NCBI RefSeq assembly: GCF_009827515.1
Contig: NZ_WTYO01000002.1
Span: forward strand, 186,001 to 250,000
Direction of reading: 5' to 3'
DNA: 64,000 nucleotides
Source: Pelagerythrobacter marinus
GTDB lineage: Bacteria > Pseudomonadota > Alphaproteobacteria > Sphingomonadales > Sphingomonadaceae
Of the stretch, positions 29,802-64,000 are shown one piece after another. Under the pieces are notes generated by a model. The model saw only the letters and a program-made list of their open reading frames with translations. It was not told the origin of the DNA and made no database searches. The translations under genes and the position numbers were made by a program. Position 1 is the stretch's first letter. Each line of letters begins with the position of its first letter.

Positions 29802-29878
29802 GCGCCCGTAGCTCAGCTGGATAGAGCACCAGACTACGAATCTGGGGGTCAGAGGTTCGAATCCTTTCGGGCGCGCCA
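29802..29878 (+). tRNA. tRNA-Arg (anticodon ACG)
   Basis: A 77-base cloverleaf. The 7-bp acceptor stem pairs GCGCCCG with CGGGCGC, followed by discriminator G and an encoded CCA. The D-arm is AGCTCAGCTGGATAGAGC. The anticodon stem CCAGA/TCTGG encloses loop CTACGAA with anticodon ACG, read as ICG after A34 deamination. The T-loop is TTCGAAT. It decodes CGU, CGC and CGA, the main arginine codons of this high-GC genome. Confidence 0.97.
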
Positions 29879-60610: not shown

Positions 60611-61996
60611 ATGACCCTCGAGATTCTCGTCGTGGACGACGAACGCGACATTCGCGAACTCGTCTCCGGCGTGCTCAGCGACGAGGGCTACGAATGTCGC
60701 ACCGCCGGCGACAGCGGCTCCGCCCTGGCCGCGATCGACGAGCGCCGCCCCAGCCTGGTCCTGCTCGACGTCTGGCTCCACGGCAGCCCGATGGACGGGC
60801 TCGAGGTGCTGGACGAGATCAAGAAGCGCGAGCCGGAACTGCCGGTGATCATCTTTTCGGGTCACGGCAATATCGACACCGCCGTTTCGGCGGTCGGGCG
60901 CGGGGCGATGGACTTCATCGAGAAGCCGTTCGAGGCGGAAAAGCTGCTCCACCTCGTCGCCCGCGCGACCGAGACCGAGCGCCTGCGGCGGGAGAACACG
61001 CGCCTGCGCCAGGGCTTCACCGGGGGCGAGGAATTCACCGGCAACTCCCCGGTCATCAACCAGGTCCGCGCGACGCTCAAGCGCGTGGCGGGCACCGGCA
61101 GCCGCGTGCTGATCAGCGGCCCGGCAGGCGCGGGCAAGGAAGTCGCCGCGCGCCTGCTGCACAGCTGGAGCGGGCGGGCCGACGGCGGGTTCGTGATCGT
61201 CAACTCGGCACGGATCACGCCCGAGCGGTTCGAACAGGAACTGTTCGGCGAGGAGGCCGACGGAAAGCTCGTGCGCCCCGGTTTGCTGGAGCTGGCCGAT
61301 GGCGGCACGCTCTACCTCGACGAAGTGGCCGACATGCCGCTTTCCACCCAGGCCCGGATCCTGCGCGTCCTGACCGAGCAGAGCTTCGTGCGGGTCGGCG
61401 GCAACCGGCAGATCGGGGTGGACGTGCGCGTCGTGTCGTCCACGTCGCGCGATCTCGCGCAAGAGATCGAGGATCGCCGCTTTCGCGAGGACCTGTTCTA
61501 TCGGCTCAACGTGGTTCCGGTGGCGATCCCGTCGCTGGCCGAGCGGCGCGACGACATTCCCGCGCTGACGCAGCATTTCTTCACCCGCTACGCGGCCGAA
61601 CAGGGCATTCCCGCGCCCGAGATTTCCGAGGAGGCGATGGCCGCGCTCCAGGCTTACGACTGGCCGGGCAACGTGCGCCAGTTGCGCAACGTGGTCGAGC
61701 GGACCGTGATCCTGTCCCCCCGCGACGACCTGCACACGGTCGAAGCGGACATGCTGCCGAGCGAGGTGACCGGGGGCAAGCTTGGGGCGGCGAACGGCCT
61801 GTCGTCGCTGATGGGCGTGCCGCTGCGCGAGGCGCGCGAGACCTTCGAACGCGAATATCTCAGCATCCAGATCCGGCGTTTCTCCGGCAATATCTCGAAG
61901 ACGGCGAGCTTCATCGGGATGGAGCGGTCGGCGCTTCATCGCAAGCTCAAGCTCCTGGGCATGGGCGAACGCAGCACGGCGGAGCGCAAGGGCTGA
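60611..61996 (+). CDS. ntrX: NtrX-type response regulator lacking the GAFTGA loop
   Basis: A 461-residue AAA+ regulator. The receiver has Asp53 (LVLLDVWLHG). The AAA+ domain has Walker A-like GPAGAGKE, YLDEVADMPLS and the arginine-rich C-terminal part FREDLFYRLNVVPV. Where NtrC has GAFTGA, this protein has LFGEEADGKLVRPGLLEL, so direct sigma-54 activation is unlikely; it may act as a repressor or with sigma-70, as proposed for some other NtrX. A C-terminal Fis-type helix is present (GNISKTASFIGMERSALHRK). AAGGAG precedes ATG 60611. Confidence 0.93.
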   Translation: MTLEILVVDDERDIRELVSGVLSDEGYECRTAGDSGSALAAIDERRPSLVLLDVWLHGSPMDGLEVLDEIKKREPELPVIIFSGHGNIDTAVSAVGRGAMDFIEKPFEAEKLLHLVARATETERLRRENTRLRQGFTGGEEFTGNSPVINQVRATLKRVAGTGSRVLISGPAGAGKEVAARLLHSWSGRADGGFVIVNSARITPERFEQELFGEEADGKLVRPGLLELADGGTLYLDEVADMPLSTQARILRVLTEQSFVRVGGNRQIGVDVRVVSSTSRDLAQEIEDRRFREDLFYRLNVVPVAIPSLAERRDDIPALTQHFFTRYAAEQGIPAPEISEEAMAALQAYDWPGNVRQLRNVVERTVILSPRDDLHTVEADMLPSEVTGGKLGAANGLSSLMGVPLREARETFEREYLSIQIRRFSGNISKTASFIGMERSALHRKLKLLGMGERSTAERKG

Positions 61997-62139
61997 TGCC
62001 GGCGCCCGCGGCAGGGGCGATCAAATATCGTTGCCCGCGGGCACCAAGCGCGGCATAATCGGTTGACTATCCGGCGGGCTCGAAAGCGCCCGCCAGAATG
62101 CGGACCGCAAGGGCGGCCGCCAACAAGAAGGAAGCAGAC

Positions 62140-62679
62140 ATGCCTAGCGGACAGACACTTTCCGCGCGTCCCAAGCCCAAGCCGGCCGAGGAGCCGAAAC
62201 AGGGACGCCAGCCCAACCTGCAGGACGCGTTTCTCAATATCCTGCGCAAGAACAAGACGCCGGTCACGATGTTTCTCGTCAAGGGCGTCAAGCTTCAGGG
62301 CATCGTGACCTGGTTCGACAACTTCTCGATCCTGCTGCGCCGCGACGGGCAGTCGCAGCTTGTCTACAAGCACGCGATCTCCACCATCATGCCGGCCCAG
62401 CCGATGGATGCGAAGCAGTTCGCGAGCCAGGATTCGAGCAAGAAGCAGCGCCTCTTGCAGGACGTGTTCCTTTCGCGCGTGCGCGATGCGGAGGCGCAAG
62501 TGACGATGTTCCTCGTCAACGGCGTGATGCTGCAGGGCGCGATCGCGGCCTACGACCTGTTCTGCATGTTGCTCGAACGCGAAGGCTACGTGCAGCTCGC
62601 CTACAAGCACGCGGTTTCGACGATCCAGCCTGCGACGCCGGTCGATCTCAGCGACGACTGGGAAGGCGAGGGCGACTGA
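62140..62679 (+). CDS. hfq: RNA chaperone Hfq with two tandem Sm domains
   Basis: A 179-residue protein, about twice a usual Hfq. Domain 1 (about 25-87) is canonical: [31 protein letters not shown] and YKHAIST. A Lys/Ser-rich linker (88-104) leads to domain 2 (about 105-167): [33 protein letters not shown] and YKHAVST. Domain 2 keeps the proximal-face residues (Gln, Asp, Phe, Tyr-Lys-His). It changes the basic rim (R-D-A-E) and replaces the distal-face Lys31 position with Met. Three chains could form a six-lobed ring. The gene follows ntrX, as in other alphaproteobacteria, and an N-terminal Pro/Lys-rich extension is present. Confidence 0.95.
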
Positions 62680-64000
62680 GCTTCGACGACAACCTCCTGG
62701 GCGAGGTCTCGCGCGGGGCGCGGGCCCTCGTCGTGTGCCCCGATATCCGCGGGCAGAAGCACGACCTCGATCCCGGGGCGCGGCTTGAGGAGGCATGCGG
62801 CCTGGCGCTGGCGATCGGCATCGTCGTCGCCGATGCGACGATCGTGCCCGTGCGCCAGGTGCGGCCCGGCACGCTGTTCGGGGCGGGCCAGGTGGAAAAC
62901 ATCGCGATTGCCTGCGAACAGCACGAGGCGGAACTGGTCGTGGTCGATGGCGCGCTATCGCCGATCCAGCAACGCAACCTGGAGGAAACGCTGCGGCGCA
63001 AGGTGATCGACCGCACCGGCCTGATCCTCGAGATCTTCGGCGAGCGGGCGGCGACGGCGGAAGGGCGCCTCCAGGTCGAACTGGCCCATCTCGATTACCA
63101 GCAGAGCCGTCTCGTCCGGTCGTGGACCCACCTTGAACGCCAGCGCGGCGGTTTCGGCTTCCTCGGCGGCCCTGGCGAGACGCAGATCGAGGCGGACCGG
63201 CGGATGATCCGCCAGCGCATGGCACGCCTCCGCAAGGAACTTGAGCAGGTTCGCAAGACCCGGGCCCTGCACCGCGAACGGCGGGGGGGGGCGCCCTGGC
63301 CCGTGATCGCGCTGGTCGGCTATACCAACGCAGGAAAATCCACCCTTTTCAATCGCTTGACGGGCGAATCTGTCATGGCGGAAGACCTGCTTTTCGCGAC
63401 GCTGGACCCGACCATGAGGGCGATCCGGCTGCCGGGCGTGGAAAAGGCGATCATGTCGGACACGGTCGGATTCATCTCCGACCTGCCGACCCAGCTTGTC
63501 GCGGCTTTCCGCGCCACGCTGGAAGAAGTGACCGGCGCCGATGTCATCGTCCACGTGCGCGACATGGCGAACCCGGCCGCCGCCGCGCAGAAGGCGCAAG
63601 TGCTGGCGGTGCTCGGCGAACTGGGCCTTGTCGAAGGGGAGGGGGGCGAAAGCACGATCCCGATCGTCGAGGCGTGGAACAAGCTCGATCTCCTGGCCGA
63701 GCCCGACCGCGAGCGGCTGCGCGAGGCGGCCGAGGGCAAGGATACGATCGTGCCGATCTCGGCCATGACGGGCGAGGGCGTCGATGCGCTTCTTGCCCGG
63801 GTCGATCGGCTGCTGACGGCCGGCGCGAAAGTGCACGAGTTCGTGCTCGACGCTGGCGAAGGACAGAAGATCGCCTGGCTCCACGCCCACGGCCAGGTGC
63901 TGGAGGATGTCGAGGCCGAAGGCGGCGAGGGGCCACGACGCAGGTTGCTCGTCCGCCTGACCCCCAAGGAATTCGGCCGCTTCGAAAGCCTCGCGGACTA
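62676..64000 (+). CDS. hflX: GTPase HflX, cut by window end
   Basis: The frame is open from within the hfq 3' end to the last base of the window, giving at least 441 visible residues. The HflX N-terminal domain ([35 protein letters not shown]) precedes the GTPase domain with G1 [10 protein letters not shown]3 DTVGF and G4 NKLD. HflX binds stalled 70S ribosomes and splits them. No ATG, GTG or TTG lies at the expected N-terminus; a CTG at 62676 overlapping the hfq stop (CTGA) would give the sequence [11 protein letters not shown]. The C-terminus lies beyond the window. Confidence 0.9.

Follow-up and report, generated by a model that had tools for sequence, protein, structure and literature searches.

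A tandem Hfq of sphingomonads and erythrobacters joins two conserved Hfq domains with unlike sets of RNA-contact residues

In a ring of six identical Hfq subunits every mutation hits all six sites, so it is hard to set the number of rims or pockets that a ring needs. The window (the whole stretch of DNA that was analysed, 64,000 nucleotides) contains an hfq gene whose product carries two Hfq domains in one chain, which raises the question whether the two domains are alike as RNA-binding surfaces and, if they are not, what ring they would make. Below, d1 and d2 are the first and second Sm/Hfq domain of such a chain, a single is a single-domain Hfq, and f1 is the GTDB family of the window. The gene, its parts and its neighbours are these:

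60611..61996, forward strand: ntrX, the upstream neighbour (context), with response regulator and sigma-54 activator domains; start approximate
62140..62679, forward strand: tandem hfq, 179 amino acids and stop; ATG at 62140, stop codon at 62677-62679
62140..62217, forward strand: N-terminal extension, with the relatives' motif as TLSARP at 62155-62172; pLDDT about 70
62218..62406, forward strand: Sm/Hfq domain d1; PF17209 108.3 bits, AlphaFold2 pLDDT 97-98 by blocks
62245..62256, forward strand: d1 rim R16-K17-N18-K19, basic patch kept, from the alignment in E. coli numbering
62281..62292, forward strand: d1 distal turn K28-G-V-K31, with Lys28 as the derived residue, from the alignment against singles
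62398..62454, forward strand: d1-d2 linker of 19 amino acids with the basic end KKQR, in place of a C-terminal tail of d1, from the alignment
62455..62643, forward strand: Sm/Hfq domain d2; PF17209 82.8 bits, AlphaFold2 pLDDT 95-98 by blocks
62482..62493, forward strand: d2 rim R16-D17-A18-E19, basic patch lost, from the alignment
62518..62529, forward strand: d2 distal turn N28-G-V-M31, with Met31 as the derived residue, from the alignment
62635..62676, forward strand: acidic C-terminal tail of d2, net charge -6, from the sequence
62733..63998, forward strand: hflX, the downstream neighbour, with HflX domains, running off the window; start approximate

The coordinates of d1 and d2 are those of the genome search minus 186000, and an alternative in-frame ATG at 62098 would give a product of 193 amino acids. 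A sequence-only reading of this DNA had claimed two complete, unlike Hfq domains in the 179-residue chain, and the profile searches bear this out. The whole protein scores 187 bits against Pfam PF17209 (cut-off 27, E 3.2e-56) in the two stretches listed above. Against NCBIfam NF010691, the tandem Hfq model, it scores 307.2 bits (curated cut-off 270) and belongs to that family, its residues 11-178 lying on positions 7-175 of the 176 in the profile. The Tyr-Lys-His signature is present in both window domains; in d2 of 122 tandem proteins Tyr55 is found in 119, and Lys56 and His57 in all. The linker has 19-21 amino acids in 112 of the 122, and the C-terminal tail of d2 is net negative in 121. No second hfq was found by a family search elsewhere in the genome, an assembly of 16 contigs and 3.0 Mb that is given as 100% complete.

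The N-terminal extension deserves a separate remark. The motif TL[ST]AR occurs in 53 of 65 relatives in the Erythrobacter/Novosphingobium sub-clade (Ala54 in d2; window not counted), or in 59 of the 65 by a looser pattern, and in 0/56 tandem relatives outside that sub-clade. It stands 20 to 71 residues before the Sm core, across a variable Pro/Ala/Lys-rich stretch, and in its sequence it looks like a short docking motif. A tRNA gene at 29802-29875 is the sole Rfam match over the gathering score in the window.

An AlphaFold2 model of the window protein, made with 74 relatives, has a mean pLDDT of 88.9 and a pTM of 0.78 (linker blocks pLDDT 75-79). The Hfq order of elements appears twice in it, and it has the Hfq fold. 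The best Foldseek match is 6gwk (TM 0.96 of the target, 0.7 Å, one domain), 80% identical over 65 columns and, judging by identity, matched to d1; the best 50 matches are Hfq chains of 60-77 residues. A pTM of 0.78 is higher than we would expect of a model in which the mutual placement of the two domains was undefined. The candidate of an already solved tandem Hfq structure was rejected, as each of the 36 matching PDB sequences has one stretch.

The residue comparisons below use an alignment in which positions were counted at fixed spacing from two anchors, the distal turn and Tyr-Lys-His. Its numbering is what we take to be that of E. coli Hfq, and it matches the residue names in the papers cited. 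The tandem set has 122 proteins, 111 of them distinct (the window, 47 from the G genomes and 74 named), and the core set of singles has 47, of which 36 are distinct (L016 and L082, counted twice, are one genome). For residues 28 and 31 the tandem set was extended to 145 by 21 genomes of genus g13 and two of the window's genus. The singles were extended to 97 (96 genomes) by ten from f1 and 40 from two wider samples, the latter being best matches to the tandem model and hence leaning toward conserved proteins. Left out were L155 (gene cut by its contig end), L096 (no open reading frame found), L088 (a fragment of 46 residues on a different contig), L089-L093 (from genomes counted before), L258 (unread), L247 (d1 only, cut contig) and L259 (second copy in G925). 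The small genomes of g13 (L241-L246, L059, L060, L087) hold some fast-evolving tandem Hfqs, 38-55% identical to that of the window, with the first helix of d2 shortened and Lys28 of d1 still present. For L059, L060 and L087 this makes the rim positions unsure; they are yet within the 122 by fixed spacing, and were excluded from the d2 part of the tree and from the linker-rim correlation. The d2 sequences of L244 and L246 were read by eye.

Where does the tandem form occur, and did it arise once? In counts made by hand from match tables, 227 of the 297 genomes of the order belong to f1; 216 of these have two Hfq matches and 11 have one, the two matches being confirmed as one open reading frame in 69 of the 216 (window included). 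Among the 70 genomes of the other families 68 have one match, one has none, and one (G001) has two on separate contigs. With the window protein as query, matches were found in 388 of 397 f1 genomes, 54 of them with E above 1e-40. Five of these 54 are of genus g13 with its divergent tandem form, one is a cut contig, and 48 are left in 15 genera, for 14 of which (all but g509) the single-domain sequences were read. The NF010691 cut-off is passed by 5/337 genomes of the class and 16/348 of the phylum, all of f1, so that among the matches listed in these two samples the tandem Hfq is confined to one clade. Named tandem loci include Erythrobacter, Qipengyuania, Tsuneonella, Novosphingobium, Sphingomonas, Sphingobium, Sphingopyxis and Blastomonas.

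The neighbourhood, with hflX next to hfq, is that of hfq in related bacteria. In f1, hfq has both ntrX and hflX at its side, all on one strand, in 46/47 tandem and 7/7 single-domain genomes, and hflX is within the hfq locus in all 85 loci examined (L016 and L082 again being one genome). In f1, ntrX lies directly upstream of hfq; it was found within none of the 30 hfq loci examined elsewhere in the order. In L003, L008, L012, L021 and L085, from other families of the order, the upstream gene resembles, by its translation, a Trk potassium transporter component.

A FastTree of 226 distinct domain sequences places the 93 d1 in one clade (0.91) and the 100 d2 in another (0.979). A fast IQ-TREE run on the same data recovers d2 and the singles as clades (99.8 and 95.1), with d1 not forming a clade of its own. 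In a tree of ntrX and hflX fragments (85 loci, 398 columns) the 47 tandem genomes form one clade (0.963), and the seven single-domain f1 genomes branch just outside it. Because the domain and flanking-gene trees fit a single origin, we conclude on one hfq duplication and fusion, and many origins of the tandem form were rejected on the same grounds. For the sample, then, these trees show that hfq was duplicated in tandem and fused once within f1 (sphingomonads and erythrobacters) and was kept between ntrX and hflX, as far as sequences can tell. No loss of the tandem form was seen among the sampled tandem genomes. A mobile origin was rejected as well: the best of 15 of 82 plasmid records is a Sphingomonas replicon of 880 kb on which the same ntrY-ntrX-hfq-hflX block is found, and 0/6 phage records reach 80% coverage. 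On that replicon, filed as a plasmid (L260, Sphingomonas parapaucimobilis), an ATP-binding protein, a sigma-54 regulator, the tandem hfq and hflX stand together, the names ntrY and ntrX being assigned from product descriptions.

The two domains are unlike at the rim. A basic residue stands at each of positions 16, 17 and 19 in 47/47 singles, in 121/122 d1 and in 1/122 d2 (L055). When 47 and 47a are added, all five sites are basic in 47/47 singles, 120/122 d1 and 0/122 d2, the d2 rims of the 122 keeping one to four of them; in the window d1 has five basic residues, d2 two basic and three acidic. The sequence-only reading had described the d2 rim as R-D-A-E in place of an Arg/Lys patch. This is what the window has, and the asymmetry extends across relatives, but the tetrapeptide itself is local: it is found in 3 of the 122 (window, L033, L061) and, outside this set, in L224 and L225, both from the genus to which the window belongs. 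R-D-A-E as a conserved feature was therefore rejected, the general feature being loss of the basic triplet. Whether d2 is basic in most relatives has to be answered position by position, since 16 is basic in 99, 17 in 44 and 19 in 5 of 122; d2 has not retained its basic patch as a unit, even if position 16 is mostly basic. An alignment over relatives, which the same reading had proposed, finds Met31 nearly fixed and the patch lost as a whole, while the exact rim residues vary. Position 17 of d2 is D in 31, K in 30, E in 24 and R in 14 of the 122; it is mostly D, E or N in Erythrobacter, Novosphingobium and their kin and mostly K in Sphingomonas, where R16 and a basic residue 17 are mostly kept. 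Arg47 of d2 is lost (Glu 85, Gln 27 of 122), altering the distal edge of the rim. We admit that such variability between lineages fits relaxed constraint as well. Position 35 of d2 is often charged (R 40, K 17, E 18, D 7 of 122); in singles and d1 it is mostly V or I. As to the proximal face of d2, said to be kept, Gln8, Asp9, Phe42, Tyr55, Lys56 and His57 are indeed there, but Asn41 has been lost (Leu in 112/122), so the proximal pocket is altered.

The strongest signal, missed by the sequence-only reading, is the Lys28/Met31 exchange on the distal face. Position 28 is Lys in 145/145 d1 and Asn in 97/97 singles; in d2 it is Asn in all but L246 (Ser). Position 31 is Lys in 97/97 singles and in d1, except for Arg in some g13, and in the 145 d2 it is Met in 138, Ala in 3, Arg in 2 (L244 and L246, both of g13), Leu in 1 and Ser in 1; within g13, 6 of 21 have A, L, S or R there. 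The replacement of the distal Lys of d2 by Met, noted before, thus holds for the window and is nearly fixed. The earlier statement that d1 keeps all usual RNA-contact residues does not survive, d1 having Lys28 where 97/97 singles have Asn28. Nor do the sequences support a distal face changed only by losing a lysine: between 28 and 31 the lysines are redistributed, two on the d1 turn and none on d2, and their sum per domain pair equals that of two ordinary subunits. For the same reason we rejected the idea that Met31 merely weakens the distal face, since Lys28, fixed in d1, speaks against it.

Only positions 28, 31 and 63 differ between d1 and d2 with more than 95% agreement in each (122 proteins). 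Position 63 is Met in 117/122 d1 and Gln in 121/122 d2; it lies on the last strand, a subunit interface in Hfq, and by its sequence pattern the difference could set which domains pair. The base-recognising distal residues (25, 26, 30, 32, 33, 52, 61) are kept in both domains, with Phe25 and Val30 in the tandem domains as in the 47 singles. According to passages of PMC10628458 and PMC6422490, bases are contacted by Gln33, Leu32, Gln52, Thr61, Tyr25, Leu26 and Ile30, Asn28 has a contact in the second pocket that is mediated by water, two subunits contribute to each site, and the RNA backbone is guided over the distal face by six protuberances of positive charge. We infer that residues 28 and 31 make up these protuberances. 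An Aquifex Hfq paper contained no passage on either residue. In E. coli, as reported in parts of a preprint (PMC12262471), K31A lowers RNA-RNA chimeras almost fourfold and R16A about a hundredfold, and K31A is mild in reporter assays, which counts against the account proposed below.

If d2 has given up its basic patch, is there something that takes its place? Passages of PMC6561178 describe the C-terminal tail of Caulobacter Hfq as running across the neighbouring protomer's rim. In the tandem protein, the charge of the last eight linker residues and that of the d2 rim (16-20 with 47/47a) are negatively related by independent contrasts (r -0.44, p 9e-7, 118 taxa, these being 118 of 119 tandem proteins with three gapped g13 proteins set aside). 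Several definitions of linker and rim were tried, and the best p-value is to be discounted for that: across nine definitions r ranges between -0.19 and -0.44, and it lies between -0.03 and -0.12 when position 47 is taken by itself; for the linker start and the tail, used as controls, it is between -0.19 and 0.12. The Spearman coefficient of -0.70 between linker and rim, computed without correction for relatedness, proves little, because the tail and the rim (0.32 to 0.49) and position 35 and the linker end (0.36 to 0.47) also correlate when uncorrected. By the contrasts, the linker end and the d2 rim are shown to trade charge, to an extent which, in these sequences, depends on the definition. 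Basic charge that had shifted from the helix into the linker would leave an identical pattern without contact.

Both domains are under purifying selection, judging from codon comparison (median dN/dS 0.097 in d1 and 0.203 in d2, from 2366 pairs of moderate dS that are not independent), d2 evolving about twice as fast. Against L033, of the same genus, the window has no amino-acid change in either domain and 22 (d1) and 16 (d2) synonymous ones, and because of this its domain features are not a matter of chance.

In our opinion the following is a probable account. A single duplication and fusion was followed by divergence, in which d1 and d2 took different, conserved sets of residues (the divergence itself is shown above), and three chains would close into a pseudo-hexamer with alternating d1 and d2, having three working rims and two alternating types of distal pocket. 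The finding of no other hfq in the genome to share a ring supports chains of one kind. The d1 rims (R16, K17, K19, R47, R47a) would do the RNA annealing. Because the linker stands in for the d1 tail, the one free tail is that of d2, which is acidic and may hold the d1 rims of the neighbour in check. A linker on the Caulobacter-like path of a normal Hfq tail would, by analogy, run over the neighbour's rim and cover that of d2, where the basic patch may have been given up in trade against linker charge. As each distal pocket lies between two subunits, six equal A-R-N pockets would become two alternating kinds, and the ring total of distal lysines would stay at six, on alternate domains. A-rich RNA should still bind, because the base-recognising residues are kept in both domains, with backbone contacts that are presumably threefold instead of sixfold. 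As a chaperone, each ring would then have three annealing sites where an ordinary one has six. The complete version of this account, that the sixfold symmetry is broken into a fixed threefold one with tail-regulated d1 rims, silent d2 rims covered by the linker and a lysine moved from d2-31 to d1-28, is more tentative, and we hold it to be somewhat short of an even chance.

The simplest objection is that fusion left spare sites and d2 drifted as structural filler, the asymmetry having no function of its own. The doubled median dN/dS of d2 and the high variability of d2 rim positions 17 and 19 speak for it. Drift, however, predicts neither a near-uniform Met31 (138/145) nor a fixed new Lys28 in the conservative d1 (145/145), and the charge trade between linker and rim persists after correction for relatedness; we thus regard relaxed constraint alone as rather unlikely, though it deserves to be taken seriously. 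It is considerably harder to believe that six chains build two homomeric rings, a d1 hexamer and a d2 hexamer joined by linkers, the d2 ring with its basic-poor rim and no lysine at 28 or 31 binding other partners. Homomeric rings are the rule for solved Hfq (passages of PMC6561178), both domains still have YKHA and ST in their last strands, and a linker of 19-21 amino acids could in principle bridge two rings. But a d1 ring would then have 12 of the lysines and a d2 ring none, making the conserved total of six meaningless, and the linker has about the length of the Caulobacter Hfq tail that reaches the neighbour's rim. The pTM of 0.78 also leans against two rings, although, being for one chain, it cannot settle the question.

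Finally, the fusion may matter only for assembly, with fewer chains to meet, and the RNA functions may be those of singles. Base-recognising distal and most proximal residues are kept in both domains. The sRNA SuhB acts with Hfq, and needs it, in Sphingopyxis granuli TFA (parts of PMC6563040), and Sphingopyxis loci read tandem in 4/4 (the hfq of TFA itself is outside the set). An entirely ordinary Hfq is nevertheless very improbable in our opinion: annealing follows the number of rim arginines (passages of PMC6561178 and PMC10628458), and half of the tandem rims are without the full patch. Apart from these readings, the tandem Hfq appears to be a working Hfq: besides the SuhB result, in Zymomonas hfq contributes to tolerance of pretreatment inhibitors (parts of PMC2877685), and the S. 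melonis locus L138 is tandem.

How much of this is new? Already known are the tandem form, described in 2010 for Zymomonas and six other Sphingomonadales, and the question, asked in the same paper, whether three chains make a ring (PMC2877685, in part); the sequence-only reading was right that tandem Hfq had been noted in sphingomonads. In the open-licence literature, with subscription journals mostly outside, we recognised no paper on unlike RNA faces of the two domains. Found here are the fixed Lys28/Met31 exchange, the loss of the d2 rim across the sampled family, the single origin and the charge trade between linker and rim. Judged by its sequences, this is a real, conserved and divided Hfq. 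If the pseudo-hexamer does alternate, it is a natural half-rim Hfq, kept across most sampled species of a large bacterial family, and the number of sites needed becomes directly testable by mutating single domains; it would offer an existing system in which to ask what number of rims and distal sites is required per Hfq ring. The exchange also suggests that distal lysines can be relocated with their number held, a specific and checkable rule.

The closest known system is Zymomonas mobilis Hfq, ZMO0347 (NF010691, PRK14091), from the same bacterial order and likewise with two Sm/Hfq domains per chain; in the passages of PMC2877685 used here its two domains are described by equal site counts, and neither residue-level asymmetry nor origin is given. 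The nearest solved structure, by sequence and by fold, is Caulobacter crescentus Hfq (6gwk). Its rim R18 K19 K21 R49 R50 corresponds to that of tandem d1, and its acidic tail lies over the neighbour's rim (PMC6561178, in part), whereas it has one domain per chain, equal rims, and Asn28 with Lys31 (NGVKLQG). Separate hfq paralogues in one genome likewise provide two kinds of Hfq per cell, and several f204 genomes have two matches each; they differ in that, among the matches listed outside f1, none covers both halves of the tandem model. The eukaryotic Sm/Lsm hetero-heptamers are rings of unlike Sm subunits in a fixed order, made of separate chains and seven subunits. They are mentioned in PMC2877685; compared with them, the tandem protein would have six ring members of two kinds, whose alternation is set by the fusion.
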